Assembly: GCF_035982055.1 (NCBI RefSeq)
Contig: NZ_CP108427.1
Coordinates: 8,431,001 to 8,495,000 of the forward strand
DNA: 64,000 nt
Source of the DNA: Streptomyces sp. NBC_01288
GTDB lineage: Bacteria > Actinomycetota > Actinomycetes > Streptomycetales > Streptomycetaceae
Direction: 5' to 3'
Part shown: in pieces, positions 9,484 through 59,763 of the stretch
Numbering within the stretch: the first letter of the stretch is position 1
How the letters are laid out: each line of letters starts with the position of its first letter
The notes under the pieces: model-generated
Seen by the model: the letters and a program-made list of their open reading frames with translations, nothing else
Database searches by the model: none
What the model was told of the DNA's origin: nothing
Made by a program: the position numbers and the translations under genes

Positions 9484-9520
9484 AGAACCGGAACGTCTTC
9501 ATGACGTTCCGGTTCTTTTT
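9484..9520. terminator. Hairpin behind gylR
   Basis: AGAACCGGAACGTC and GACGTTCCGGTTCT form a perfect 14-base stem with a five-base loop, 35 bases after the gylR stop. The T-run (CTTTTTC) is on the plus strand; read from gylR the run comes as A residues before the stem, so termination of gylR may be leaky and allow read-through into glpF. Confidence 0.7.
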
Positions 9521-9550
9521 CGCTGTGAATCGGGGATGGATCCTGGCTGG

Positions 9551-10586: not shown

Positions 10587-10728
10587 GCGGTCCGCCCCAT
10601 GGACGCTTCGAGCATCCCTCGGCCCGACCCCGTTACCCTGGCGACGTGCACGCTCCCCGGGGAGTTCCGTGAGAGGTTCCCAGGGAAGCCGCAAAGCCGA
10701 CAGCCGTCGCACTCCAGGGAGCCCCTTC

Positions 10729-42694: not shown

Positions 42695-44347
42695 TCAAGA
42701 GCTCAGGTACGGTCGCCAGCCGCCGTGGCTTGTGATGTCCTCGGCGTTTTTCAGCGCCGCCGGCTCGCACAAGAAACCCGGGACGCTTGTGCCGTCTGCC
42801 AGCTCTACGCTGCCCAAGGTCATGGGGCGGGGCAGGGTCGCCAGCAGGCGGCCCAGGCCCTCTGCCGGTAGGTGCCATACCTCCGTCTCTATCGTCGCTC
42901 CGCCCTCGCCGACGTGAACCAAGCCCGGCTTGGGCGGAGTTGTTGTCAGGGCGTGTAGGCGGTAGACCGGGGCCGTTGTGGTCGTGCGGTCCAAGGTGGC
43001 GCCCAGGGACAGGAGTTGGGGGTTCAGGGGCTGGCCCGTCAAGTGGGCTCCTACGACTGCCAGTTGGACCGTTGAGTTCAGGTCGCGGGCGATCTGCGCC
43101 AGGCGGTTGTCCGTGAACGTCGGGCCGATCAGCATTACCCCGAAGGGGAGGCCGTTCACCTCGCCCGACGGGACTGCTACTGCCGCCAGGTCGAAGAGGT
43201 TGGTGGAGTTGGTGAAGCGGCCCAGGCGGGCGTTCGCGCCGAGGGGGTCTTCGGCTACTTCGGCCAGGGTCGGGTGACCTGGAGTTGTCGGGAGCAACAG
43301 GGCGTCCGCGTCGGCCAGTTCGGAGAGGGCTCGGGTGCGGAGGGCGGCCAGGCGCTCCTCGTCCGCGTACAGCTGGTGGGCCGGGATGTCTCGGGCTCGG
43401 GTGATGATGCCGGTGACCGTGGGGTCTAGGCCCTCGGTGCCGGATGCGATCGCCTTGTCGATAAATGCCCCCACCGCTGTGTAGCGCTCGGCCACGAACG
43501 CCCCCTGGTAGAGCATCGCCGCCGCTTCCGTGAACGGGGTGAGGTCCAGGGGGCGGATCTCGGCGCCTGCCGTTCGGAGGCGGGTGACTGCCTCCTCGTA
43601 GGCCTCCGCCCAGCCCTCGTCCAGTTCGCCCAGTTGGTCTCGTGGGGGGACCGCTATGCGCCAGGGGCCCGGCGCTCGTTGGGGGAGGGGCGGGAGGGCG
43701 CGGGCGGGTGGGGAGGTCATGAAGGACAGGGCCTGTTCGGCCTCGGGGAGGGTGCGGGCGAAGACCGTCACGCAGTCGATCGAGGCGCAGGCCGGGACCA
43801 CGCCCGCCGTCGGGACCAGGCCCCGGGTGGGCTTGAGGCCGACGATGCCGTTGAACGCGGCGGGGACCCGGCCCGAGCCCGCGGTGTCGGTGCCGAGGGC
43901 GAAGTCGACGATGCCCAGGGCCACCGCTACCGCCGAACCCGCGCTGGAGCCGCCGCTGATCCGCTCGGGATCGTGGGCGTTGCGGACCGCGCCGTACGGG
44001 GAGCGGGTGCCGACCAGGCCCGTGGCGAACTGGTCGAGGTTCGTGGTGCCGAGCACGATCGCGCCGGCCGCGCGGAGGCGGGCCACCACCGGGGCGTCGG
44101 CCGACGGCTCGTAGGCGTAGGCGGGGCAGCCCGCCGTTGTCGGTAGGCCGTGGACGTCTATGTTGCCCTTGGCCGCGAACAGGCGGCCCGCGAGAGGGAG
44201 TTGATCGCCTGCCGATACACGCTCGTCGATCGCCCTCGCCTCGGACTCCACGTCCGGTTGCCGGCGTAGGTCGATCCAGATCTCTGGGCGGTTCACCGCC
44301 TCTATGCGGGCGTAGGCGGCTCGGACTCGGGACACGGTGGTCGACAT
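42695..44347 (-). CDS. atzF: Allophanate hydrolase
   Basis: The ATG at 44347 follows AAGGAG; 550 residues. The amidase-signature triad is visible: Lys60 in FAAKGNIDVHG, cis-Ser in SGGSSAGS (131-138) and nucleophile Ser158 in GTDTAGSGR. A C-terminal domain of about 110 residues (VVGAHLTGQPLNPQLL..., GWRPYLSS) is the allophanate-hydrolase-specific domain. It cleaves allophanate (urea-1-carboxylate) to ammonia and CO2. It is the last gene of a four-gene operon with the biotin carboxylase 20 bases upstream. T-ending codons are more frequent here than in its neighbours. Confidence 0.92.
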   Translation of the reverse strand: MSTTVSRVRAAYARIEAVNRPEIWIDLRRQPDVESEARAIDERVSAGDQLPLAGRLFAAKGNIDVHGLPTTAGCPAYAYEPSADAPVVARLRAAGAIVLGTTNLDQFATGLVGTRSPYGAVRNAHDPERISGGSSAGSAVAVALGIVDFALGTDTAGSGRVPAAFNGIVGLKPTRGLVPTAGVVPACASIDCVTVFARTLPEAEQALSFMTSPPARALPPLPQRAPGPWRIAVPPRDQLGELDEGWAEAYEEAVTRLRTAGAEIRPLDLTPFTEAAAMLYQGAFVAERYTAVGAFIDKAIASGTEGLDPTVTGIITRARDIPAHQLYADEERLAALRTRALSELADADALLLPTTPGHPTLAEVAEDPLGANARLGRFTNSTNLFDLAAVAVPSGEVNGLPFGVMLIGPTFTDNRLAQIARDLNSTVQLAVVGAHLTGQPLNPQLLSLGATLDRTTTTAPVYRLHALTTTPPKPGLVHVGEGGATIETEVWHLPAEGLGRLLATLPRPMTLGSVELADGTSVPGFLCEPAALKNAEDITSHGGWRPYLSS

Positions 44348-47300: not shown

Positions 47301-47877
47301 AGAAGGAGGCGGCGGCGACACGCTGCACGCGCTCCCAGGACTCGGTGAGTTCGGCGGGGGAGTGGCAGGCCGACATGCCGATGCCGCCGCCTCCGCCTGT
47401 TGCCTTGAGCATGACGGGGTAGTCGATCAGGGCGGCTTGGGCGAGCGCCTCGTCCAGGTCTGCCAACAGGCCTGTGCCGGGCGCCAGTTGGACTCCTGCC
47501 GCCTCGGCCGCCGCGCGCGCTGTGTGTTTCGCGCCGAAGAGCTCCAGTTGTGCGGGAGTCGGTCCCACGAACACGATTCCGGCGTCCTCGCAGCGGCGTG
47601 CGAAGGCCGCGTCCTCGGAGAGGAAGCCGTAGCCGGGGTGGATCGCGCCCGCGCCCGTGTCCTTGGCCGCCTTGAGGACCAGGTCGGCGTCCAGGTACGA
47701 CTCTTTGGCGGGTGCCGGGCCGAGTCGTACCGCTTCGTCGGCGAGCCGTACGTGGGGTGCCGAGCGGTCGGCGTCGGAGTACACGGCGACCGTGCGGAGG
47801 TCGAGTTCGCGGGCCGTGCGGATGACGCGGACGGCGATCTCGCCCCGGTTGGCGATCAGCAGCGTGTCGAAGGTCAT
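44368..47877 (-). CDS. Biotin-dependent urea/guanidine carboxylase
   Basis: 1169 residues. Domains in order: biotin carboxylase (from MTFDTLLIANRGEIAVRVIR; ATP-grasp with KATGGGGGIGM), carboxyltransferase halves of the AHS type (GTLTTVQDWPGRTGYWQVGVPPCGPMDDL ... ENSVGIGGAYLCVYGMEGPGGYQFVGRTTQVW) and a C-terminal biotin domain with Lys1132 in EAMKMES. It is the stand-alone form of urea amidolyase. Its ATG overlaps the stop of the DUF1989 gene before it. Close relatives linked to paired DUF1989 proteins carboxylate guanidine rather than urea; the substrate-determining residue (Asp in guanidine, Asn in urea enzymes) needs an alignment I cannot do. Confidence 0.93.
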   Translation of the reverse strand: MTFDTLLIANRGEIAVRVIRTARELDLRTVAVYSDADRSAPHVRLADEAVRLGPAPAKESYLDADLVLKAAKDTGAGAIHPGYGFLSEDAAFARRCEDAGIVFVGPTPAQLELFGAKHTARAAAEAAGVQLAPGTGLLADLDEALAQAALIDYPVMLKATGGGGGIGMSACHSPAELTESWERVQRVAAASFSSAGVFLERLVEHARHVEVQVFGDGEGKVVTFGDRDCSLQRRNQKVVEEAPAPGLPDHIRTQLATSARDLCASVGYRSAGTVEFVYDAAREEAYFLEVNTRLQVEHPVTEEIYGVDLVAWMLRLAQGEPDVVRDPGTPRGHAVEARVYAEDPSREHRPSAGLLTRVEFPDGVRVDGWVETGTEVTTSYDPMLAKVIAYGPDRAHALQRLDEALARTRMDGIETNLGLLQAALAEPDFKAATHSTATLATITDPTSRIEIVSGGTLTTVQDWPGRTGYWQVGVPPCGPMDDLSFRLGNRALGNDEGTPGLECTLQGPTLRFTHATTVCVTGAPAPVTIDGTPVPQWEPVTVPAGATLEIGAPAEHGLRTYVLFAGGLDVPAFLGSASTFTLGRFGGHGGRALRTGDVLHGGTITEGTPVPTADRPTFTAVWDVAAVEGPHAAPEFFTADDIRDFYAADWKVHFNSARTGVRLVGPKPRWARTDGGEAGLHPSNIHDTPYSVGAVDYTGDMPVLLGPDGPSLGGFVCPATVISQERWKLGQFRPGDTVRFAPVNVDGSPRPDIVDGGILARDGDVTFRRSGDDNLLVEFGPMQLDLAQRMRVHALMEAVAEADFEGVTDLTPGIRSLQIQTDPSRLPQSELLSSVRETAAALPPTDQLIVPSRTVHLPLSWDDPATREAIARYMAGVRDDAPWCPWNIEFIRRVNGLDSVEDVYGTVFDAEYLVLGLGDVYLGAPVATPLDPRHRLVTTKYNPARTWTAENSVGIGGAYLCVYGMEGPGGYQFVGRTTQVWSGWQQRGAFEQGSPWLLRFFDRIKWYPVEADELLDLRADIISGRFVPRIEEGTFSLAEYEAFLTENAESIAEFRSRQQTAFGAERDAWEAAGEFTRAEAAATPAPPQAEVTVPAGGRLVEAEFAASVWQLNVEPGDEVTVGQPLLALEAMKMESRVHAPMAGIVTEILARPGDQVEAGTALLVLAPAS

Positions 47878-48473
47878 TCCGGGACCCCGATGGTCATCTC
47901 CACGGCCGTCGGCTCGAAGCCGTTGCAAGGGTTGTTGATCTGGGGGCAGTTGGAGACCAGGACCAGGACGTCGCGATCGGCGCGCAGGGTCAGTTTGAGG
48001 CCCGGGGAGGAGAGGCCGTCGACGATGCCGAGGGTGCCGTCCTTCTCGACCGGCACGTTCATGTACCAGTTGATGTTGGAGACCAGGTCGCGCTTGCCGA
48101 GGCCGTAACGGGCGCCCTCCGCGAGGAAGTTGTCCACGCACGCGTGCTGCGACCAGGTGTGGTGGCCGTAGCGCAGGGTGTTGGACTCCTTGGAGCAGGC
48201 GCCGCCGACCGTGTCGTGGCGGCCGACCTCGTCGGCGGTGACGGTCATCAGCGGGGTGTGCTCGTTGGACATCAGCACGCTGCCGGTGGTGAGGAAGAGG
48301 TTGCCCTGGGCGTGGATGGTGTCGGGGGCGCTGTAGCGGACCGAGGTGTCGTGGGCGTCGTAGACGAGGAAGTCGACGGCCTGGTTGCCGTGCAGGTCGG
48401 TGACGGTGAGGGTCTCGCCGGTGCGGATGACGGCGGACCAGGCGGCGCGGGCGGGAACGACGGTCGTGCTCAT
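47874..48473 (-). CDS. DUF1989 protein (UAAP2; probable carboxyguanidine deiminase subunit)
   Basis: 199 residues from the ATG at 48473. It has conserved DUF1989 features: LTVTDLHGNQAVDFLVYDAHD, ERYSAPDT-like TIHAQGNLFLTTGSVLMSNEHTPL, GGACSKESNTLRYG, and two cysteines (SNCPQINNPCNGF) that coordinate a metal in this family. Formerly 'urea amidolyase-associated protein 2'; its family pairs are now known to deiminate carboxyguanidine (CgdA/CgdB). Stop and start codons overlap its neighbours on both sides, which indicates tight coupling. Confidence 0.85.
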   Translation of the reverse strand: MSTTVVPARAAWSAVIRTGETLTVTDLHGNQAVDFLVYDAHDTSVRYSAPDTIHAQGNLFLTTGSVLMSNEHTPLMTVTADEVGRHDTVGGACSKESNTLRYGHHTWSQHACVDNFLAEGARYGLGKRDLVSNINWYMNVPVEKDGTLGIVDGLSSPGLKLTLRADRDVLVLVSNCPQINNPCNGFEPTAVEMTIGVPE

Positions 48474-49294
48474 GCGAGCCCCCTTGCGGCAAGGAATTCC
48501 GTGGTGTTGAGGAACGCGTGGTGGCCTTCGGGCGTGGCCTCCCACAGCGGGTCGCCCGGCTCGGTGGGCTCGGCGCGCCAAGCGAGCACCTCCAGCGGGG
48601 AGTTGACGTAGTCGTCGCGCGGGTCGGCCGGGTGCGGCACGTTCGCGATCAGTACCGTCACGTCCTGTTCGGCGCGCAGGGTCACGCTGCCGCCGGGGCC
48701 GGTCGAGCCGGTGAAGTCGAGGGAGCCGTCGTCGCGGATCTCGACGCCCTGGAAGAAGGAGAGCGAGGGCGGCAAGTCCCGTGGTTCCAGGCCGTTCTTG
48801 GCGGCGGCGAGCTTGAACAACTCGCGTCCGGCGGGGGAGTCGGACTGCGGAGTGCCGTCGCCGTAGCGCTCGGTGTTGCGGACCAGGGTGGAGGTGCCGC
48901 ACAGCGCGTCGTGGCGGCCGGAGGTGTCGGCGACGAGGGAGGCGAGGACGCGGCCCTGGTCGGAGAGGAGGAGCCGGCCCTCGCCGAGGTAGGCGTTCCA
49001 CTGGACCTTGACCGTGTCGGCGACGTTCAGGCGCTCCCACGGGCGGTCGGCCGCGTACAGGAGCAGGTGGGCGCAGGCGTCGCCGCGCAGGTCGGTCAGG
49101 CGGAGTTCGGTGCCGCGGGCCAGGACGCGGTGGGTGTAGTTGCCGCCCGCCACCGTCTCGGCCCAGACCAGGTGGCCCGCCTCGCAGGGCGGGGCCGGCC
49201 AGTCGCCGGCCGGGACGACGGGCATCGCCTCGGCCCGCTTGCCCTCCTGGGCGCGGGCGTGGTCGCGGGCTCCGTAAGTGGTCGCTGTCGCCAT
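48470..49294 (-). CDS. DUF1989 protein (UAAP1; probable carboxyguanidine deiminase subunit)
   Basis: 274 residues from the ATG at 49294, preceded by GGAGG. Family motifs: GNYTHRVLARGTELRLTDLRGDACAHLLLY, LNVADTVKVQWNAYLGEGRLLLSDQGRVL, SGRHDALCGTSTL and PSLSFFQGVEI. It is the first gene of the operon UAAP1-UAAP2-carboxylase-allophanate hydrolase; the order and overlaps match a catabolic pathway from guanidine to ammonia. The operator-like palindrome is 43 bases upstream of its start. Confidence 0.86.
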   Translation of the reverse strand: MATATTYGARDHARAQEGKRAEAMPVVPAGDWPAPPCEAGHLVWAETVAGGNYTHRVLARGTELRLTDLRGDACAHLLLYAADRPWERLNVADTVKVQWNAYLGEGRLLLSDQGRVLASLVADTSGRHDALCGTSTLVRNTERYGDGTPQSDSPAGRELFKLAAAKNGLEPRDLPPSLSFFQGVEIRDDGSLDFTGSTGPGGSVTLRAEQDVTVLIANVPHPADPRDDYVNSPLEVLAWRAEPTEPGDPLWEATPEGHHAFLNTTEFLAARGLA

Positions 49295-49336: not shown

Positions 49337-49358
49337 ATTTCTGTCGCTCGACAGAAAT
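49337..49358. promoter_or_regulatory. Palindromic operator between the carboxylase operon and tetR
   Basis: ATTTCTGTCG and CGACAGAAAT are perfect inverted arms around CT. On the minus strand TAATTT, a possible -10 element, overlaps one arm, so a bound repressor would block the operon promoter. 18 of 22 positions, and the following AAATTAGG, recur at 59641-59662 before the APC permease gene. Confidence 0.75.
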
Positions 49359-49502
49359 TAGGAGGCGGGCGGGTCGCCGGGGTTGCCCGGGTGTTGCCGC
49401 TCGGTTACCGAGCCCTCACGAAGATCACCGGGAGTCCGGCGGCCACTCGGCGCGCATTCGGTGGGCGTTCGCCGTCCGGGGCCGTGTGCGAGGATCGAAC
49501 GC

Positions 49503-50138
49503 ATGGGGACAACGGGTGCACAGGGGGGCCGCCGGGTCGGCAGGCCGCGGGCCGATCAGCGGCCGGACAGCGGGCTCGCACCGCGTGCCGAACTCCTCTC
49601 CGCCGCCGCCGAGTTGTTCACCACCCGCGGCTACGCGGCCACCACCACCCGGGCCGTCGCCGAGCGCGCGGGCATGCGGCAGGCGTCGATGTACCACTAC
49701 GTCTCCGGCAAGGAGGAGCTGCTCGCGGACCTCCTGGAGTCCACGGTCACGCCCTCGCTGGCGTACGCCCGGGAACTCCTCGCGGACGACGCCACGTCGG
49801 CCGAGGGTCGGCTGTGGGAGCTGTGCCGTACGGATGTCGAGCTGCTGTGCGGCGGTTCGCACAACCTGGGCGGGCTGTATCTGCTGCCCGAAGTGCGCGC
49901 CGAGCGGTTCGCCGGCTTCCATGCCGTACGCGCCGAACTCAAGGACGCCTACCGGCAGTTGCTCGCCGCGACGGCCGCCGGTGGAGCGCTCGCGAAGAGC
50001 GAGTTGGAGCTGCGGACGGATCTGGTGTTCGGGCTGATCGAGGGCGTCATCCTCGTGCACCGCTCCGACCCCGAGCGGCCGGTGTCCGCCTTCGCGGAGG
50101 CGACGGCCGACGCCGCGCTGCGCATCGCGGGAATCTGA
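49503..50138 (+). CDS. TetR-family regulator
   Basis: 211 residues from the ATG at 49503. The DNA-binding helices are RAELLSAAAELFTTRGYAATTTRAVAERAGMRQASMYHYVSGKEELLADLL, fully typical of TetR. The ligand-binding half ends with ADAALRIAGI. It is divergent from the carboxylase operon with the palindrome in the gap, so it is the probable repressor. A nearby GAGGAT is a possible -10 or ribosome-binding element. Confidence 0.9.
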   Translation: MGTTGAQGGRRVGRPRADQRPDSGLAPRAELLSAAAELFTTRGYAATTTRAVAERAGMRQASMYHYVSGKEELLADLLESTVTPSLAYARELLADDATSAEGRLWELCRTDVELLCGGSHNLGGLYLLPEVRAERFAGFHAVRAELKDAYRQLLAATAAGGALAKSELELRTDLVFGLIEGVILVHRSDPERPVSAFAEATADAALRIAGI

Positions 50139-50173
50139 GCCGCGATCCGGCCCTGAACCCGAGCCGGAACCGG

Positions 50174-50243
50174 GGCTTCACTCCTTACGGTGAGTGATAT
50201 TCGCATGTCCGTACGCCGTAACTCGCTGTGTGCGAATGAAGCC
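50174..50243 (+). other. Nested inverted repeats in the leader of the conservon
   Basis: GGCTTCA (50174) pairs with TGAAGCC (50237), ATTCGCA (50199) with TGCGAAT (50231), and TTACGG (50185) with CCGTAA (50216). The last pair crosses the second, so either a pseudoknot or two exclusive structures form. It lies behind the tetR stop and 215 bases before cvnA. Otherwise 50139-50457 shows only a pyrimidine-rich run and no gene. Confidence 0.4.
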
Positions 50244-50457
50244 TCAGCGTGTAAATGGGCTGAGGGTACTCCTCTTCCATGTCCCTTTTCAGGGGCTTGC
50301 TGAATATGACACAGCGGTGATCCGGTCGGACTAAGCTCGCCCGCAGCGCACCGAGTTGGGCTGTATTCGTGCGCTTGTTCCCAAACATGCAAAAGATACA
50401 GAAGCTCCCCCCAGATTTCCCCCTTCCCCCCAGCCGACCTGTCTTTAGAGGGCATAC

Positions 50458-52044
50458 ATGGTGAGTGTTCAATCGCCCCCCCGTGGCCGTGAACTTCCCT
50501 ACGCGCGCGTGTTGTTGCCGCCTGCCATAGTGATGGCCGCGGCGACCGGGGCCGCCGTCGCCCTGGTGGCGGGGCCTGCCCGGATCGCCGTCGGCTGGTG
50601 CGGAGCCGTCGCCACCCTCCTGGTGATCGTGACAGCGGCCGAAGCCGTACGCCGCGGACGCAACCTGCGGGACGCCCGCGCCGAGCACGACCGTCACACC
50701 GCGTATCTGGAGCGGCGGCTGGCCGACCAGAACGTGGAGATGCTCCGGCTCGGCAAGGAGATCCTGCCCGCCACGCTCTACCGGCTCAGCAGCGGAGAAT
50801 CCCCCGGAGAGGTGATTCGCCAAGTCGTCGACGCCGATCCGGACTGGCGGCAACTTCCGCAGCCGCAGCGCGACTTGCTCAGGACGGTGCTCAACATCGT
50901 CCAGCGCGAGGAGAACATGCGTGACTCCGCGCAGCGTTCCTTCGTCAGCATCGCCCGCCGTGTCCAGGCCATCGTCCACCAACAGGCCAAGGAACTCCGG
51001 GAGATGGAGGAGGACCACGGACGCAACCCCGAGGTCTTCGACGACCTCCTGCGCATCGACCACGGCACCGCGCTGATCGGTCGTCTCGCCGACTCCATCT
51101 CGGTGCTCGGCGGTGGCCGCCCGGGCCGCCAGTGGCCCGAACCGGTGCCGCTGTACAGCGTGTTGCGCGGCGCCATGTCCCGCATCCTGGAGTACCGGCG
51201 CATCGAGCTGCACTCCATCGCCAAGGTCAACATCCGCGGCATCTCCGTCGAGCCGGTCATCCACGCGGCGGCCGAACTCCTCGACAACGCCACGCGTTAC
51301 TCGCCCCCGCAGACCAAGGTGCACGTCACCGCCGTAGAGGTGCAGACCGGTGTCGCCATCGAGATCGAGGACGGCGGCGTCAGCCTCAGCGAGGAGTCGC
51401 GCGCGCGGGCCGAGGGCATGCTGGAGCGCGCCAAGGCCGGCACCGACCTCCAGGACCTCGGCGAGAGTCCGCGCCTGGGCCTCCAGGTCGTCGGCCGGCT
51501 CTGCGCGACGTACAACATGCAGATCTCGCTGCGCGCCTCGGCCTACGGCGGCGTCCGCGCCGTCCTCATCGTGCCCAGCGAGATGCTCACCCCCGGCACC
51601 GCACCCGGACTCGCCCACGGCATCGGCGCCACCGCCATGCCCAAGGCCGAACTCGGCGCGGTCGACGGCCCCAAGCGCACGATCAAGCGGCGCCGCCCCA
51701 CGAGCCCGCGCATCCCGGCCTCGGTGAGCATGGAGGACGAGGTTCCCGAGGTCACCGAGTGGACGGCGGGCGGCCTGCCGCAGCGCCGCAGCCGGGTCAA
51801 GGTCCCGCTCGCCCAGCGGTACGCCGAACAGGCCGCCGCCGAGCGCGCCGAGGCCGCCGCACGGGAGGCCCGCTCCGCCTGGGGCACGCCCGAGCCCGAG
51901 CCGGAGAAGAAGGACGAACCCGAACCGGGCCTGTGGGTCGAGGCGTTCATGGAAGGCCTCAAGGGTGACCCGGACCCGACCGCTTTCACCCAGAAGACCG
52001 AGCCGGCCCGAGTCGAGGCCGACGACGAGGGGGACCTCAAGTGA
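50458..52044 (+). CDS. cvnA: Conservon sensor-kinase-like protein CvnA (RarA-like)
   Basis: 528 residues: two N-terminal membrane segments (about 18-38 and 44-62), a helical dimerisation region, a histidine-kinase-type ATPase domain with Asn277 in ELLDNATRYSPP, then a disordered charged tail. The second ATP-binding motif is in IEDGGVSLS and the third in LGESPRLGLQVVGRL. Such proteins start the five-gene conservons of streptomycetes (cvnA-E); in S. coelicolor the copy next to the tat/helicase locus is rarA-E (cvn9). It is thought to work with the roadblock and GTPase proteins like a receptor complex. Confidence 0.93.
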   Translation: MVSVQSPPRGRELPYARVLLPPAIVMAAATGAAVALVAGPARIAVGWCGAVATLLVIVTAAEAVRRGRNLRDARAEHDRHTAYLERRLADQNVEMLRLGKEILPATLYRLSSGESPGEVIRQVVDADPDWRQLPQPQRDLLRTVLNIVQREENMRDSAQRSFVSIARRVQAIVHQQAKELREMEEDHGRNPEVFDDLLRIDHGTALIGRLADSISVLGGGRPGRQWPEPVPLYSVLRGAMSRILEYRRIELHSIAKVNIRGISVEPVIHAAAELLDNATRYSPPQTKVHVTAVEVQTGVAIEIEDGGVSLSEESRARAEGMLERAKAGTDLQDLGESPRLGLQVVGRLCATYNMQISLRASAYGGVRAVLIVPSEMLTPGTAPGLAHGIGATAMPKAELGAVDGPKRTIKRRRPTSPRIPASVSMEDEVPEVTEWTAGGLPQRRSRVKVPLAQRYAEQAAAERAEAAAREARSAWGTPEPEPEKKDEPEPGLWVEAFMEGLKGDPDPTAFTQKTEPARVEADDEGDLK

Positions 52045-52448
52045 TCCAGCAGCGAGCCAACTTCGACTGGATGCTCAAGGATCTCGCCGACGGCGTGCCC
52101 GGCATCCAGCAGATCGTCGTGCTCTCCGCCGACGGACTCCGCATCGCCCGCTACGGCGGCGACCCCGATGCCGCCGACCGCGTCGCCGCGGCCTGTGCCG
52201 GACTTCAGAGCCTGGCGGGTGCCGTCGCCTCGGAGATCCCGGGCAGCGACGGCCGGATGAAGATGGTCATCATCGAGATCAACGGCGGCTACTTCTATCT
52301 GATGGCCGCGGGCGCCAACGCCTACCTGGCCGTCCTGTCCGACGTCGTCGCCGAGCCCGGCCTGATGAGCAACCGCATGCGCGACCTCGTCGTCAGAATC
52401 GGCGCCCACCTCACCAGCCCGCCGAGGCGCAACGGGCAGACCGTATGA
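52041..52448 (+). CDS. cvnB: Conservon roadblock/LC7 protein CvnB
   Basis: 135 residues from a GTG that overlaps the cvnA stop (GTGA). Roadblock fold: FDWMLKDLADGVPGIQQIVVLSADGLRIARYG and a central sheet KMVIIEINGGYFYLMAAG. It would bridge CvnA and the GTPase CvnD, probably as an exchange or activating factor. Confidence 0.93.
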   Translation: MIQQRANFDWMLKDLADGVPGIQQIVVLSADGLRIARYGGDPDAADRVAAACAGLQSLAGAVASEIPGSDGRMKMVIIEINGGYFYLMAAGANAYLAVLSDVVAEPGLMSNRMRDLVVRIGAHLTSPPRRNGQTV

Positions 52449-52849
52449 CTCCTCCGCAACGCCAGCGGCGACATCCGACGGACGGGCCGCCGCCCGAGCC
52501 CGCCAAGAAGCAGGGCGAAGGAAAGATCCCGGAGCGGCTGTACGTGCTCACCGGCGCGACCGAGGACGGTGACCGGGCCGAACTCGACCTGGTCACGCTG
52601 ATCGTGGCGCGTTCCGACGCGCCGCAGTCGGCCACTCCGGAGCAGGCGGCCCTGCTCGGGCTCTGTATCGCCCCCCTGTCCGTGGCCGAGCTGTCGGCCT
52701 ATCTCAACCTGCCGTACAGCGTGGTGACCGTCCTGCTCACCGAGCTGCTGACGGCCGAACTGGTGCAGGCGCGCGCCCCGATCGTCCGCCAGGCGCTCCC
52801 CGACCGTTCCCTCCTCGAAGCGGTGATGCATGGACTTCAAAAGCTCTGA
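52445..52849 (+). CDS. cvnC: Conservon DUF742 protein CvnC
   Basis: 134 residues from an ATG overlapping the cvnB stop. After a disordered basic start it has the DUF742 core RLYVLTGATEDGDRAELDLVTLIVARSD and a winged-helix-like part (PLSVAELSAYLNLPYSVVTVLLTELL). Its role is not known biochemically; the family always stands in conservons. Confidence 0.93.
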   Translation: MTPPQRQRRHPTDGPPPEPAKKQGEGKIPERLYVLTGATEDGDRAELDLVTLIVARSDAPQSATPEQAALLGLCIAPLSVAELSAYLNLPYSVVTVLLTELLTAELVQARAPIVRQALPDRSLLEAVMHGLQKL

Positions 52850-53450
52850 CACCGTCACGGGCCCTCGGACCGAGGACCATCTCCCGCACACGGCCCAGGC
52901 CGCGGTGAAGATCGTGATCGTCGGCGGCTTCGGGGTCGGCAAGACGACCATGGTCGGTTCGGTCAGCGAGATCAGGCCGCTGACCACCGAGGAGACCATG
53001 ACGCAGGCCGGCGTCGGCGTCGACGACAACTACGGCTCGGAGAGCAAGACGGCCACCACCGTCGCGATGGACTTCGGCCGCATCAGCATCACCGACCAAC
53101 TGGTGCTGTACCTGTTCGGCACCCCCGGCCAGGAACGCTTCTGGTTCCTGTGGAACGGGCTGTTCGAGGGCGCGCTCGGCGCGGTGGTGCTCATCGACAC
53201 GCGGCGCCTCGAAGTCAGCTTCGACGTCATAGGACGGCTGGAGGAGCGCGGGGTGCCGTTCGTGATCGCCGTCAACTCCTTCCCGGACGGCCCGCATTAC
53301 CCCATCGAGGACCTGCGTACGGCGCTCGACCTGTCCCCGGACATCCCCATCATCGAGTGCGACGCGCGCCGCCGCGCCTCCAGCCGGGACGTCCTGATGA
53401 CCCTGATGCGCTTCCTGCACTCCCTGGCGATGACGGGCTCACTGACCTGA
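52830..53450 (+). CDS. cvnD: Conservon GTPase CvnD
   Basis: 206 residues; the ATG lies inside the end of cvnC (20-base overlap). P-loop GGFGVGKT at 32-39, switch motif TPGQERF, and NSF in place of the NKxD specificity loop. The small Ras-like GTPase is the proposed signalling output of the conservon. Confidence 0.94.
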   Translation: MDFKSSDTVTGPRTEDHLPHTAQAAVKIVIVGGFGVGKTTMVGSVSEIRPLTTEETMTQAGVGVDDNYGSESKTATTVAMDFGRISITDQLVLYLFGTPGQERFWFLWNGLFEGALGAVVLIDTRRLEVSFDVIGRLEERGVPFVIAVNSFPDGPHYPIEDLRTALDLSPDIPIIECDARRRASSRDVLMTLMRFLHSLAMTGSLT

Positions 53451-53502
53451 CCCGCCCAACTCCCCCGACACCGGATCCACTTCAGCTCCCGGAGCGATCA
53501 CC

Positions 53503-54990
53503 GTGACGCCTGAACACCACTTTCCGACCGATACGGACGACACCAGGCTCGGCCCGCCCCCCGGCTGCCCCGCGCACGGCCAGGGGCCCGGGGGACTGCA
53601 CCGGCTGTACGGCCCCGAAGCGGCGGACCTGGGCGCCCTCTACGAGAAGCTCCGCGCCGAACACGGCCCCGTAGCACCGGTGTTGCTGCATGACGACGTG
53701 CCGATCTGGGTCGTCCTCGGCCACACCGAGAACCTGCACATGGTGCGTACGCCCTCGCAGTTCAGCCGGGACAGCCGGGTCTGGACACCGCTGCGTGAGG
53801 GCATGGTCAAGCCCGACCACCCGCTGATGCCGCACATCGCCTGGCAGCCCATCGCCTCGCACGCCGAGGGCGACGAACACCTGCGGCTGCGCGGCGCGGT
53901 CACCGGCGCCATGTCGACCATCGACCCGCGCGGCATCCGCCGGCACATCAACCGCTACACCCAGATCCTCGCCAACACCTTCTGCGAGCAGGGCCACGCC
54001 GAACTCGTTAGCCAGTTCTGCGAACACCTGCCGATGGCCGTGCTGTGCGAGATCCTCGGCATGCCCGACGAGTACAACGACCAGATGGTGGAGGCGGCCC
54101 GCGACGCCCTCAAGGGCACCGCCACCGCGATCGTCAGCCACCAGTACGTCATGGACGCGCTCAGCCGGCTCACCGCGCTGCGCCGGGCCGAACCCGCGGA
54201 CGACTTCACCAGCCACCTCGTCATGCACCCGGCGGGGCTCAGCGACGACGAGGTCAGGGAGCACCTGCGGCTCGTCCTCTTCGCCGCCTACGAGGCCACC
54301 ACCAACCTCCTCGCCAACGCGCTGCGCATGGTCATCACCGACCCGCGCTTCCGCGCCCAGCTCAACGGCGGGCAGATGACGGTGCCGGAGGCGGTCGAGC
54401 AGTCCCTGTGGGACGAGCCGCCGTTCTCCACCGTCTTCGCCTACTTCGCCAAGCAGGACACGGAGTTGGGCGGCCAGCGCATCCGCAAGGGCGACGGCCT
54501 GCTCTTCGCGCCGGCGCCGGGCAACGTCGACCCCCGGGTACGCCCCGACCTCAAGGCCAACATGATGGGCAACCGCTCCCACCTGGCCTTCGGCGGCGGC
54601 CCGCACGAGTGCCCCGGCCAGGACATCGGCCGCGCCATCGCCGACACCGGGGTGGACGCGCTGCTGATGCGTCTCCCGGACATCGAACTCGACTGCGACG
54701 AGGCCGAGTTGAGCTGGACGGCGTCGATCGCGTCCCGCCACCTGGTGGAGCTGCCGGTGCAGTTCGCCCCGAAGCCCCCGCAGGACGTCTCGGAGAAGCC
54801 GGGCCACGCGGCGGTTCCGCAACCCCGCCACACCTGGCACGTCGGCATGCAGTCCGACCCGCAGCCGACATCGGCGGCGATGCCCGGGGCCGCCGAGCCG
54901 ACGGCACCGCCGGAGCCGGTGGTGACTCCGGAACCGGTACACCAACTCGGCGCGTGGCAGCGGTTCTTGAGGTGGTGGCGGGGCTACTGA
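53503..54990 (+). CDS. cvnE: Conservon cytochrome P450 CvnE
   Basis: 495 residues from a GTG behind GGAG. Heme-binding loop FGGGPHECPG with Cys370 and the K-helix-like segment after it are present. The I-helix reads FAAYEATTN, in which the usual A-G-x-E-T has Ala for Gly and one extra residue. A Pro-rich tail of about 90 residues ends in a Trp-rich amphipathic stretch (LGAWQRFLRWWRGY) that may touch the membrane. P450s at this position have no known substrate. Its end overlaps the convergent rluA-like gene by seven bases. Confidence 0.92.
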   Translation: MTPEHHFPTDTDDTRLGPPPGCPAHGQGPGGLHRLYGPEAADLGALYEKLRAEHGPVAPVLLHDDVPIWVVLGHTENLHMVRTPSQFSRDSRVWTPLREGMVKPDHPLMPHIAWQPIASHAEGDEHLRLRGAVTGAMSTIDPRGIRRHINRYTQILANTFCEQGHAELVSQFCEHLPMAVLCEILGMPDEYNDQMVEAARDALKGTATAIVSHQYVMDALSRLTALRRAEPADDFTSHLVMHPAGLSDDEVREHLRLVLFAAYEATTNLLANALRMVITDPRFRAQLNGGQMTVPEAVEQSLWDEPPFSTVFAYFAKQDTELGGQRIRKGDGLLFAPAPGNVDPRVRPDLKANMMGNRSHLAFGGGPHECPGQDIGRAIADTGVDALLMRLPDIELDCDEAELSWTASIASRHLVELPVQFAPKPPQDVSEKPGHAAVPQPRHTWHVGMQSDPQPTSAAMPGAAEPTAPPEPVVTPEPVHQLGAWQRFLRWWRGY

Positions 54991-55931
54991 CCGGCCCAGT
55001 CCTCGTACGAGGACCAGGCTTCGAGCACCCGCCCGCTACGGAACCGGTGCTCGGCCCCCGTGACCGGATCGGTGAACTCCAGGGCCCGCGCCAGCAGTTG
55101 GAGGGGCCGCCGGAAATCACCGTCCGCCACGGGGTCGTCGACCACGGGATACAGCGGATCACCGAGGATGGGCACGCCCAACGCGCTCATGTGCAACCGC
55201 AGTTGATGAGTCTGCCCGGTACTGGGCGTCAACCGGTACCGGGCAAGCCCGTCCCCCCGCTCTTCCTCCAACTCGACCCGGCTGACGGCATTGACCTCAC
55301 CCTCGACCTGCTGCGCGGCCATCACCCCGCGCTCTTTGAGAATCCGGGACCGCACGGTGGTCGGCAGGTCCAGCCCGGAGTCGTACGGCGCGACGGCCTC
55401 GTACTCCTTCCGCACCCGCTTCTCCCGGAACAGCGCCTGGTACGCGCCCCGTTCCTCGGGCCGCACCGTGAACAGCACGAGCCCCGCGGTGAGTCGGTCG
55501 AGCCGGTGCGCGGCCCCGAGCGCCGGGATCCCCAACTCCCTGCGCAGCCGCGCCAATGCCGTCTCGACGACGTGGCTGCCACGCGGGGTGGTCGCGAGGA
55601 AGTGCGGCTTGTCGGCGACGACGATGTGCTCGTCGCGGTACACGACGTCCACGGGAAAGGGCACCGGCACTTCGACGGGCAGCTCCCGGTGGAACCACAC
55701 GAACATCCCGGGTTCGTACGGCGACCCGGCCACACTCGTCCCGTCCACCCCGACGAACAGCCCGTCGTCCATCATCTGATCGACGACCCCGTCGCCCGCC
55801 CCTGAGAGCCGGTCCACCAGGTACTCGCGCACGGTGGTCCAGGCCTCATCGGGGGGCAGACGGACCCGCACCGGGTCCACTCCGTCGCGTTGGGGGAGGG
55901 GGGAGGGCGGGATACGGCGCTTTCGGGTCAT
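54984..55931 (-). CDS. RluA-family pseudouridine synthase
   Basis: 315 residues from the ATG at 55931. The catalytic motif HRLD with Asp145 stands in GAAHRLDRLTAGLVLF; GQTHQLRLHMSALGVPILGDPLYP is the second family motif. It isomerises uridine in ribosomal or transfer RNA. The N-terminal 60 residues are not S4-like, so it is an RluA/RluE-type protein with an extra segment. Target position unknown. Confidence 0.9.
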   Translation of the reverse strand: MTRKRRIPPSPLPQRDGVDPVRVRLPPDEAWTTVREYLVDRLSGAGDGVVDQMMDDGLFVGVDGTSVAGSPYEPGMFVWFHRELPVEVPVPFPVDVVYRDEHIVVADKPHFLATTPRGSHVVETALARLRRELGIPALGAAHRLDRLTAGLVLFTVRPEERGAYQALFREKRVRKEYEAVAPYDSGLDLPTTVRSRILKERGVMAAQQVEGEVNAVSRVELEEERGDGLARYRLTPSTGQTHQLRLHMSALGVPILGDPLYPVVDDPVADGDFRRPLQLLARALEFTDPVTGAEHRFRSGRVLEAWSSYEDWAGQ

Positions 55932-56016
55932 TGGGGTCAAGGGTAGGCGGTGGGGTCGGGCGGGGGGCTGCTTCGAGAGCCAGCGCAGAGCCAGCGCAGA
56001 GGCGGCACCGAGGCGG

Positions 56017-56511
56017 TCACCCGTGGTACGGCTCGCAGGCGACGCCGTCTCCGTCTCGATCCAACTCGGGTCGGTACCCGGGATCTCCTCGGTGGAGCGG
56101 CGCGGCGCCGGCGGCTCGGGCGGCATCGCAGTCCTCGTAGTACGCGTAACCGTTGTCCGAGGGCTCGGCGGGCTTCGACGGCCTGACTGAGTGCTCGGTC
56201 GGCTGTGACGGCTTGGTTGTGTGCTTGGCCGGTACGGTTTCCTCGATCGTCTCGGTGGAGGTGACGGTCGGCCCGGGTACCAGCTCTGTCTTCGTCTCGG
56301 TTTCGGTCGCTGTCACCGTGTCCGAGGGCGACGGCCTGGACGCGGAGGACGGATCCGTGACGAGAGCGAGCACCATGATCACCGTGAACGCGCCGATGAC
56401 GTAGAGCCACCACGGCACTCGGCGCCACGGATTGCGTTCGGGCGGCGGTTGGTCCGGACCGCCGTGCGACGTCGTTCTGTTCCCCCACCCGCGCTGCTGC
56501 GAACTGTCCAT
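56017..56511 (-). CDS. Membrane-anchored excalibur calcium-binding protein
   Basis: 164 residues; start ATG behind GGAGG. One membrane segment (about 34-52), a Thr/Pro/Glu-rich outer stalk and a C-terminal excalibur domain (EDCDAARAAG ... RDGDGVACE, residues about 125-160) with the DxDxDG calcium loop and the two cysteines. Probably exposed on the cell surface. Function unknown. Confidence 0.85.
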   Translation of the reverse strand: MDSSQQRGWGNRTTSHGGPDQPPPERNPWRRVPWWLYVIGAFTVIMVLALVTDPSSASRPSPSDTVTATETETKTELVPGPTVTSTETIEETVPAKHTTKPSQPTEHSVRPSKPAEPSDNGYAYYEDCDAARAAGAAPLHRGDPGYRPELDRDGDGVACEPYHG

Positions 56512-56637
56512 GGCCGCCTCCGGGTTCCCCTTTCAGGGGAGCACCCCAACGGCTTTTCCGCGCGGCGAGGAAGCTGCCGAGGATCACGCACGTCCGCTCT
56601 GCGGCTCAGGCTCTGGCGGCCTGCCCGGTGTCATATG

Positions 56638-57104
56638 TCACCGAAGACCGTTTCCCGCGAGGAACCGACGGGCTGCCCGCAGACCTACCTCGTCCCTGGC
56701 CCACAGGCCCCACTTGGCCTGCCCCTCCTGCTGGAACAGTTCCGCGAACGTCCGCCACAGGTGTACGCGAAACCCGTCGGGTGCGCCACCTCGTGGGCGA
56801 TGAACCCCGCCAGCGGCCCGTGCTCCGCGCTTTTCTCGAAGGACGGCCACGGCTGGAAACGAATCTCCTCCTGGAACGACCAGGCAGAGGTGGGATAGAC
56901 CAGCCCGCCGTAGCGGTGTTGGGCCTGCCGGAGCCCGGCGAGCAGCACCGTGGCGTCCGCCTCGGGAAACGGTGCGAGCCGGGCGATGACCTCGGTGTCG
57001 TCCGGGTTGTCCCGCGTGGGGAAAGGAACGGTGCGGGCTCGTGCGGCGAGGAAACGCCGACCCCGGTCCGTCAGCCGTCCTGGTGTGTCGAGGATGTGCT
57101 GCAT
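56638..57104 (-). pseudogene. Frameshifted hypothetical gene
   Basis: From the ATG at 57104 the frame reads sensibly (MQHILDTPGRLTDRGRRFLAARARTVPF ... GFIAHEVAHPTGFA) until about 56770, then turns into Arg/Cys-rich nonsense to a stop at 56685. In the next frame the same stretch continues plausibly (VHLWRTFAELFQQEGQAKWGLWARDEVGLRAARRFLAGNGLR, stop at 56638). So one frameshift, or a sequencing error, separates the halves. I do not recognise the family. Confidence 0.6.
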
Positions 57105-57231
57105 GAGGTCGTCATCATCTCTCCGGCGGAGGGAACGGGCCCTGTCCGAGGGCCCCGCGATCCCGAACACTTTCGACGGCGGTACAGCGGTACAGCGGAC
57201 CCGCAACCAGCCCGTACTGCCGACGAGGCTG

Positions 57232-57729
57232 TCAACTGACCTTACTGAGAGCCGTCTTGTACTCGGCGGCCTGCTTCGGGGTCAGGTAGTGCGACACCCT
57301 GACGAGCACGGGCCCGTGGACGTAGTCGTACTCGGTGAACGCCGGGATCGACTTGGTGATGGCCTGGATGTACTTGGCGCGTGACGTCGCGTCCGCCGGG
57401 TCGGTGAACACCTCGATCGCGCCACCACGCTCCACATCTCCCTTCGACGTACCCGCCACATCGGACGCCGCGATCCGCGAATCGGTGAACGTCACCTTCG
57501 ACGTGTACTGATTCGGCCGGCCGAGGAGATGGTTCGGATCGTCGGCCGCGGTGACGGTGCCGGACTGTTTCGCGGACGTCACGGTCACGGAGAGCTTCGT
57601 GAACGCGCTGCCGGCCGTGAGGGGCTCGGCCGCTCTGCCGCCCGAGTCGACGGCCGTGCCGGCCTTCGGGCTGCCACTGCAAGCGGCGGTCAGCAGGATG
57701 ACGGTGATGGGCAGGACGGTACGGCGCAT
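57232..57729 (-). CDS. Putative lipoprotein
   Basis: 165 residues from the ATG at 57729 behind AGGGGGA. Signal peptide with lipobox LTAAC (Cys at 17). The mature part has a DUF-like pattern: TKLSVTVTSAKQSG, GRPNQYTSKVTFTDSRIA and EVFTDPADATSRAKYIQAI; it may be a small surface beta-protein. Function unknown. The next gene (a permease) is 296 bases upstream. Confidence 0.75.
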   Translation of the reverse strand: MRRTVLPITVILLTAACSGSPKAGTAVDSGGRAAEPLTAGSAFTKLSVTVTSAKQSGTVTAADDPNHLLGRPNQYTSKVTFTDSRIAASDVAGTSKGDVERGGAIEVFTDPADATSRAKYIQAITKSIPAFTEYDYVHGPVLVRVSHYLTPKQAAEYKTALSKVS

Positions 57730-58025
57730 GAAGTCCCCCTGGTGGTGCGGGTGTTGCGTGGGGTCACAGTGCCAGGCCGCTTACCGAGCGCGGGCGGTTG
57801 TTGCCGGTCCGTGATGGTTCGTTCGGATCCGTTCCCCTTCGAGGTGCGCGAAGCGGGAGCGCATCGGGAAGCCCGCGAGCGCGGAGCCGGAACGTGTGCG
57901 AGTCCCGGAGGGGTGCACACCGCACAGCCCTCCGGGACCTTCTGGACCCGCCCACTCGAAGCCGAGCATCACGCTCGACAGGTACACGTGCCCCCGTCCG
58001 ACCGGAGAGAACACCGCAGTGGACG
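57730..58025. other. Gap between the lipoprotein gene and the permease gene
   Basis: No gene, strong hairpin or repeat is visible here; it presumably holds the promoter of the lipoprotein gene and the end of the permease transcript. Confidence 0.35.
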
Positions 58026-59588
58026 CTACATAGTCGCTTCCGGAAGGACCGCCTCAGGAGCCTCCGTCGCGACCGTGCGGGCCCGGTACGCCCGGTACCC
58101 GAAGCCGGCCCCGACCGTCACCACCAGGAACAACACCGTGAACCACTGGAAGTACCAGTGCCCACCCGCCGGGTCGTACACGGCAGCCCGCGGCCACGCC
58201 AGGTTGACCGTCATGACAAGGCCGTAGAGCAGCGCCAGCGCGTTGACCGGTACCCCCCACCGGCCCAGGGAGAAGAGGCGCGCGCCCGTCTCGTCCGTGC
58301 CCGCCACCTCGAACTCGCCCCGCACGCGGCGGAACAGCAACGGGCCCGTCACCATCGCGTAGGCCAGGTACAGCATCACGATGCAGGTGGTGCCGATGGC
58401 GAGGAACGCGTCCGGGGAGGCGAAGTTGAGGAGGAGCAGGGCGGCCGAGAGGATGCCCACGACGATGGCCGGGGCGCTGGGCATGCCGGTGCGGGGGTTG
58501 ACCTTGGACAGGCGGGCGGAGAAGGGGAGTTGGCCGTCTCGGGCCATCGAGAAGAGCATGCGGCAGGCCGCCGTCTGGATGGCGAGGGTCGCTACCGCGA
58601 TCGCCACCACCACGTCCGCCAACAGGGCCTTGCCGACGCCGTCGCCGAGGCTGCTCGTGAGGACGTAGCTGAGGCCGTCGACGCCCAGGTGGCCGTCGGT
58701 CAGGCTGGGGGCGGCGAGGAGGCCGCCGAGGATGATCAGGCCGCCGAGCAGGCCCGCCGCGGTGAGCGCGGTGAGGATCGTGCGGGGCGCGGTGCGGCGC
58801 GGGTTGTGGGTCTCCTCGCTCATCTCGCCCGCGCTGTCGAAGCCGATCATCACGTACGCCGCCGTGAACGAGCCGACCAGCAGGGCGCCGAGCAGTCCGC
58901 CCTCCAGGCTGCCGGTCGTGTGGAAGGTGATGGTCGGGGTGCGCTTCGAGTGGGTCAGGAGGAGAACGACGATCAGGATCGCGCCGATGATCTCGGCCGT
59001 CACCCCGACCCGGTTGATCACCGACATCACGCGGTTGTCGAGGATGTTCACCAGCGTCGTCAGGACCAGCAGGATCACGCCCAGGACCGCCGCGTTCGCC
59101 GCGCCGTCCGGTGAGGTGGGTGCCGGGTCGCCGCCCACCAGCTGGAAGCCCGACCAGATCGCCGGCAGCACCATCTGGAGGGCCAGGGCGGCCGCTCCCA
59201 CCACCACGATCTGGCCGATCACCATGATCCAGCCCGCGAACCAGCCGAAGGTCGCGTTGGAGAGGCGGGACGACCACTGGTAGATCGCGCCCGAGATCGG
59301 GTAGCGCGCGGCCAGTTCCGCGAAGCAGGCGGCCACCAGGAGCTGGCCGGCCAGCACGATCGGCCAGGCCCAGAAGAAGACGGGGCCGCCGAACGCGTAC
59401 CCGAAGGCGAAGAACTGGAAGACGGTCGTCAGTACGGAGATGAAGGAGAAACCGGCCGCGAACGACGCGTACCGGCCGAGGCTGCGGTGCAACTCCTGGC
59501 GGTAGCCGAACTCCGCGAGGGAGCCGTCGTCGGGGGAGGGGGAGTGGGGCGGGTCGGGGCGTATGTCGGAGGGGGCTGTGGTGGTCAC
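58026..59588 (-). CDS. APC-superfamily permease (probably for the carboxylase pathway substrate)
   Basis: I take the GTG at 59588 (520 residues). Twelve predicted membrane segments. The first helix region FAAGFSFISVLTTVFQFFAFG and SGAIYQWSSRLSN are typical of amino-acid/choline/GABA-type permeases, and related permeases are associated with urea-carboxylase genes in other bacteria. The same palindrome that lies before the carboxylase operon lies 53 bases upstream of this start, so it is probably the importer of guanidine, urea or a related compound. This is inference. Confidence 0.88.
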   Translation of the reverse strand: MTTTAPSDIRPDPPHSPSPDDGSLAEFGYRQELHRSLGRYASFAAGFSFISVLTTVFQFFAFGYAFGGPVFFWAWPIVLAGQLLVAACFAELAARYPISGAIYQWSSRLSNATFGWFAGWIMVIGQIVVVGAAALALQMVLPAIWSGFQLVGGDPAPTSPDGAANAAVLGVILLVLTTLVNILDNRVMSVINRVGVTAEIIGAILIVVLLLTHSKRTPTITFHTTGSLEGGLLGALLVGSFTAAYVMIGFDSAGEMSEETHNPRRTAPRTILTALTAAGLLGGLIILGGLLAAPSLTDGHLGVDGLSYVLTSSLGDGVGKALLADVVVAIAVATLAIQTAACRMLFSMARDGQLPFSARLSKVNPRTGMPSAPAIVVGILSAALLLLNFASPDAFLAIGTTCIVMLYLAYAMVTGPLLFRRVRGEFEVAGTDETGARLFSLGRWGVPVNALALLYGLVMTVNLAWPRAAVYDPAGGHWYFQWFTVLFLVVTVGAGFGYRAYRARTVATEAPEAVLPEATM

Positions 59589-59640
59589 GGCGGCACCTGC
59601 CTTCGGCGCAGGAGAGCGGAATCCTGACGGCGACAGCTGA

Positions 59641-59662
59641 ATTCCTGTCGGGTGACAGAAAT
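59641..59662. promoter_or_regulatory. Palindromic operator before the APC permease gene
   Basis: CCTGTCG and TGACAGA arms separated by GG, matching 18 of 22 positions of the palindrome at 49337-49358, again followed by AAATTAGG. As there, TAATTT on the minus strand overlaps one arm as a possible -10 box. Confidence 0.7.
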
Positions 59663-59763
59663 TAGGGAGAGGCTGTTTCGGCCGCGTCACGCCGCCGTGT
59701 CCGCGGCGGGCCTAAGTCCTCACGCTCTTGCCTTCGCCACCAAAACGCGATACATCGTGTGTG

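Follow-up and report, generated by a model that had tools for sequence, protein, structure and literature searches.

Two putative AmtR operators with upstream GlnR-type boxes at a guanidine-type carboxylase operon and a separate permease gene of Streptomyces sp. NBC_01288

A stretch of 64,000 nucleotides of Streptomyces sp. NBC_01288 (contig NZ_CP108427.1, positions 8,431,001 to 8,495,000; this whole stretch is called the window, and its own numbering is used below) harbours two near-identical 22-bp palindromes. One of these (operator 1) lies upstream of an operon encoding UAAP1, UAAP2, a biotin-dependent carboxylase and an allophanate hydrolase, the other (operator 2) upstream of a distant gene encoding an APC-superfamily permease (Table 1). 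Both palindromes are very probably operators of AmtR, the regulator encoded at 49503, which would control an operon for guanidine use together with the permease gene, with GlnR-type boxes upstream of the two sites. This assignment is based on comparative sequence analysis.

The two palindromes and their regulator

Operators 1 and 2 are identical at 18 of the 22 positions. TAGG then follows each of them, so that the common flank is AAATTAGG. Operator 1 is built of perfect 10-bp arms around a central CT, and operator 2 of 9-bp arms with one mismatch. The distance to the start codon is 43 bp for operator 1 (ATG of UAAP1 at 49294, minus strand) and 53 bp for operator 2 (GTG of the permease gene at 59588, minus strand). 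A preliminary description of this DNA had reported near-identical palindromes at these places, 43-53 bases before minus-strand starts and overlapping a TAATTT box, and its coordinates, its 18 identities, the common flank and both distances were confirmed. The genome scan it had proposed was for the core with its flanks. The bare core CTGTC-N4-GACAG was found at 15 places in the genome, compared to 9 for a control pattern, and thus is not specific; the flank is therefore needed for such a scan. When the flank is included (18 fixed bases) and no more than one mismatch is allowed, exactly two copies of the site are found in the 10.56-Mb genome. A search of the genome for a third operator yielded next-best sites with 2 mismatches in 16, none of them clearly upstream of a nitrogen gene.

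The protein encoded at 49503 contains a TetR_N domain (58 bits). Its closest solved structures are those of AmtR of Mycobacterium smegmatis (5e57, E 2e-35) and Corynebacterium glutamicum (5dxz, 5dy0, 5dy1), and further AmtR structures are found among its best PDB relatives (5mqq, 6gy3), while other TetR structures match far more weakly than this group. The protein is the sole match at E 1e-25 in its own genome, and by homology it is an AmtR orthologue. An AmtR consensus, TAtCTGTCa-n2-cGACAGATAT, likewise a 22-bp palindrome, is given in a paper that credits it to work on S. avermitilis AmtR (Chen et al. 2013). The core CTGTC-N4-GACAG of this consensus is identical in operators 1 and 2.

Conservation and promoter layout

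A sample of 150 Streptomyces genomes was searched for the extended site, the carboxylase and AmtR. Of these genomes, 36 carry the extended site, mostly in two copies of the same orientation that are 2.4-12 kb apart; the reversed control pattern of the extended site gave 0 occurrences in the 150 genomes. All 36 site-bearing genomes encode the carboxylase (35 score above the cut-off of the family, and in one the gene is split over contigs). Overall, the carboxylase was found in 42 of the 150 genomes, and none of the 108 genomes lacking it carries the site. Six genomes thus have the carboxylase without the site. Five of them (loci L090-L094) harbour a divergent system, in which a more distant TetR protein (40-44% identical) is encoded downstream of the allophanate hydrolase and the permease gene comes first in the operon, preceded by a single variant palindrome, TACCTGTC-N4-GACAGGTA. 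GlnR-like matches sit at a different distance in these five loci. The sixth genome (G069, locus L096) encodes a urea-type carboxylase and an allophanate hydrolase and is devoid of AmtR, UAAP1/2 and the operator; it thus forms a natural counterexample to the guanidine-type set.

A wider scan took in 84,980 species, each by a single genome. The 80 loci listed from it are all of actinomycetes, namely Streptomyces, Streptacidiphilus, Actinacidiphila, Kitasatospora, Microbispora, a mycobacterium and one further actinobacterium. In these listed loci 75 of the 85 sites immediately precede UAAP1 or the permease gene; several of the other ten are near the edge of the fetched stretch. One genome (G097, locus L058) seemingly has two partial sets of regulon genes on different contigs, and a near-perfect 30-bp palindrome, CCTAATTTCTGCCGAACGACAGAAATTAGG, is found at 9493-9522 of its locus, approximately 1.7 kb from amtR.

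The preliminary description had placed unrelated genes, including the conservon, between the two sites, and conservon, P450 and pseudouridine synthase genes are present there. The conservon block separates amtR from the permease gene in most relatives. It is absent from six of them (L050, L051, L055, L072, L073, L078), in which the two genes adjoin, or nearly so. The intervening ~9 kb is therefore not part of the regulon and represents an insertion or a loss-prone block; the conservon and the following genes (window 50458-53450) are mobile or readily lost. Genus-wide co-occurrence, AmtR orthology and the match to the consensus support the view that the TetR protein at 49503 has a regulon defined by these two sites.

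Besides the operator, the two promoter classes have further elements in common. Alignment of 35 UAAP1 and 32 permease promoters, anchored on the operator, revealed an invariant TAATTT and further-upstream blocks with an 11-bp period. TAATTT is likely the -10 element of both promoters. The upstream blocks resemble the published GlnR consensus gTnAc-n6-GaAAc-n6-GtnAC-n6-GAAAc, for which the best four-part register is at -46 from CCTAATTT in both promoter classes. The mean GlnR score at this position is 13.4 of 18 for UAAP1 promoters and 14.4 of 18 for permease promoters, whereas 200 column permutations reached maxima of 8.9 and 9.9, respectively. Each promoter carries a four-part GlnR-type box, equally far upstream of the operator in the two cases and conserved throughout the genus. 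The layout also occurs outside the family, in two genomes from a different family within the class, with one promoter shifted by one base. At the best-matching site of the G097 locus (L058) the GlnR-type pattern is absent. In both classes nearly all promoters share a conserved GTGAG ~57 bp before CCTAATTT; it precedes the first GlnR-type half-site position by 11 bp, in register, and is perhaps a further GlnR half-site.

Table 1 Features of the locus (positions in the window)
Feature	Positions	Strand	Remarks
Allophanate hydrolase	42695..44347	minus	assigned by family scan
Biotin-dependent carboxylase, TIGR02712	44368..47874	minus	guanidine-type: Asp at K. lactis 1330 position
UAAP2 (DUF1989-type)	47874..48473	minus	putative second carboxyguanidine deiminase subunit; 33-36% identical to UAAP1
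UAAP1 (DUF1989)	48470..49294	minus	putative carboxyguanidine deiminase subunit; function from literature
AmtR operator 1 (predicted)	49337..49358		22-bp palindrome ATTTCTGTCGCTCGACAGAAAT; upstream of UAAP1, between UAAP1 and divergent amtR
TAATTT	49355..49360	minus (AAATTA on plus)	overlaps operator 1; invariant in compared UAAP1 promoters; within CCTAATTT (CTTAATTT in some)
GlnR-type box a-b-a-b	49371..49408	minus	GTAAC-n6-GCAAC-n6-GCAAC-n6-GACCC; upstream of operator 1; 14/18 consensus positions
amtR, TetR-family regulator	49503..50138	plus	211 aa; divergent from UAAP1
Intervening genes	50458..56126		conservon kinase, DUF742, GTPase genes, P450, pseudouridine synthase; outside regulon
APC-superfamily permease	58026..59588	minus	TIGR03428-type; putative guanidine importer
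AmtR operator 2 (predicted)	59641..59662		22-bp palindrome ATTCCTGTCGGGTGACAGAAAT; upstream of APC permease
TAATTT	59659..59664	minus (AAATTA on plus)	overlaps operator 2; near-invariant in compared permease promoters
GlnR-type box	59675..59712	minus	upstream of operator 2; second pair GTGAC-n6-GAAAC perfect; 15/18 consensus positions

Guanidine or urea, and other readings of the sites

The carboxylase of the operon scores 1841 bits against TIGR02712 (cut-off 1304). Guanidine carboxylases differ from urea carboxylases by an Asp instead of an Asn at the position of residue 1330 of the Kluyveromyces lactis enzyme, and have Asp also at 1584. In the window carboxylase D693 and D916 (numbering of the protein fragment) align with these two positions (structure 5i8i), so both are Asp. 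Asp is found at the 1330 position in 44 of the 46 related loci in which this stretch was covered; G069 has Asn, and locus L164, a fragment, gave no reading. UAAP1 and UAAP2 belong to the carboxyguanidine deiminase group, and in nitrifiers guanidine import is predicted to be the task of an APC permease. The Asp signature, the deiminase group and this prediction make guanidine the most likely substrate of the "urea" carboxylase operon and a guanidine importer the most likely function of the permease. The two sites had earlier been taken to predict the substrate class of the permease; a shared class is a fair prediction, since the permease resembles those of urea carboxylase systems.

Alternatively, the sites could be genuine AmtR operators of a pathway for urea, consisting of urea carboxylase and a urea or amide permease. 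The names of the families TIGR02712 and TIGR03428 and the older literature do say urea. This is nevertheless unlikely, as the discriminating residue is Asp in the window and in every readable AmtR-linked relative, the sole Asn enzyme found is the one that comes without UAAP1/2, AmtR and operator, and carboxyguanidine deiminase subunits are unnecessary for urea. No guanidine-I, -II, -III or -IV riboswitch was detected at Rfam gathering score in the window, and none in six related loci. The only match at gathering score in the riboswitch scan of the window was a Streptomyces-metH RNA (RF03076, 87.8 bits) at 10587-10731.

It is less probable still that the palindromes are bound by another regulator, either a different TetR-family protein or GlnR, with AmtR as a bystander. 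Regulator and site are separable, as ten carboxylase-less genomes have kept an AmtR of 65-80% identity (L079-L089; G012, G038, G039, G046, G054, G074, G078, G083, G085, G094) and no matching operator was found within their fetched loci. However, all ten are also devoid of the target genes. Furthermore, the sites fit the AmtR consensus, they sit between amtR and its targets where both are present, and the GlnR consensus is a different one that is matched upstream of the palindrome. Several of the ten genomes show the gene order helicase-amtR-pseudouridine synthase. A chance likeness or a repeat element, suggested by the recurrence of the bare core in the genome, has a negligible probability and was ruled out by the conservation tests: in dozens of species the site keeps its position and orientation at each of the two genes amid diverged flanking DNA, and its occurrence goes with that of the carboxylase.

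A likely mechanism and its relation to known AmtR systems

In the proposed mechanism AmtR, encoded between the operators, would repress the UAAP1-UAAP2-carboxylase-allophanate hydrolase operon and, in trans, the single permease gene. Both promoters follow a common plan: the four-part GlnR-type box has its end 8 bp before CCTAATTT, and the TAATTT in this element overlaps with the AmtR operator. GlnR would activate transcription at nitrogen shortage, the box just upstream of the -10 element being a place where an activator could contact RNA polymerase. As long as no signal, perhaps guanidine, releases it, AmtR bound over the -10 element and the presumed start region would obstruct RNA polymerase. 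The enzymes most likely form ammonia from guanidine, with carboxyguanidine and allophanate as intermediates.

Several points weigh against this reading. The permease matches TIGR03428 (urea carboxylase system permease), by far its best family, along the whole length but scores 649 bits, under the curated cut-off of 740.45, and is best described as of TIGR03428 type, not as a member of the family. The GlnR-type box is supported by the listed loci, in which 83 of the 85 sites found by the operator alone score at least 12 at the fixed place, but this set partly overlaps the genomes in which the pattern was first seen. With respect to the signal, neither urea nor amino acids released AmtR of M. 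smegmatis in vitro (Jessberger et al. 2013), and AmtR of C. glutamicum is released by the GlnK protein.

An AmtR regulon with a carboxylase operon and a separate permease gene is already known from relatives. Chen and co-workers, in their 2013 work on AmtR of S. avermitilis, reportedly used gel shifts and mutation to define the two operators there. The AmtR regulon of S. avermitilis was described as sav6697, sav6698, sav6701 (amtR) and sav6709 (permease) (Jessberger et al. 2013), and comprises the same gene set as found here (sav6697-6700, sav6701, sav6709; Chen et al. 2013; Jessberger et al. 2013). There, too, amtR and the permease gene are eight gene numbers apart and the operator is of the 22-bp kind; the present locus is from another species with a 10.56-Mb genome, and the 2013 papers cast the regulon as a urea/amide pathway. 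In M. smegmatis (msmeg_2184-2189) permease, UAAP, carboxylase and allophanate hydrolase genes are likewise under AmtR. There AmtR, which binds to the promoter of the orthologous permease gene, acts as a repressor of the permease, carboxylase and allophanate hydrolase genes, whose response to nitrogen requires GlnR (Jessberger et al. 2013). However, the M. smegmatis genes form one permease-first operon with amtR elsewhere, whereas amtR here is located between its putative targets, with two operators. The homologous AmtR of C. glutamicum recognizes an operator of similar form, CTAT-N6-ATAG, but is a global nitrogen regulator of at least 30 genes that is released by GlnK, a PII protein, compared to two sites only in the present genome. 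Guanidine riboswitch operons of Proteobacteria and nitrifiers encode the same enzyme set and an APC permease as probable guanidine importer, while in the window a protein repressor and activator boxes are predicted in place of a riboswitch.

To the known systems the present analysis adds the GlnR-type box layout, the guanidine-type Asp of the carboxylase and the ten enzyme-less genomes with AmtR and without the site. In the literature searched, AmtR is not mentioned together with guanidine; neither the fixed GlnR-box/AmtR-operator layout in Streptomyces nor a test of guanidine as AmtR effector was found in print, the content of Chen et al. 2013 aside.

A link between seemingly distant genes has thus been confirmed from sequence alone and its regulator named as AmtR, and a regulon described as urea-related is recast as most likely a guanidine regulon. 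The predicted promoter design of GlnR box, -10 element and AmtR operator is precise and testable. It is a tentative suggestion, less probable than not, that AmtR is a repressor responsive to guanidine (or to carboxyguanidine or allophanate), and that GlnR box and AmtR operator form a fixed AND-NOT module which serves in actinomycetes the role that guanidine riboswitches have elsewhere. If AmtR does sense guanidine or a product of it, this regulator would be an actinomycete protein counterpart to the guanidine riboswitches.

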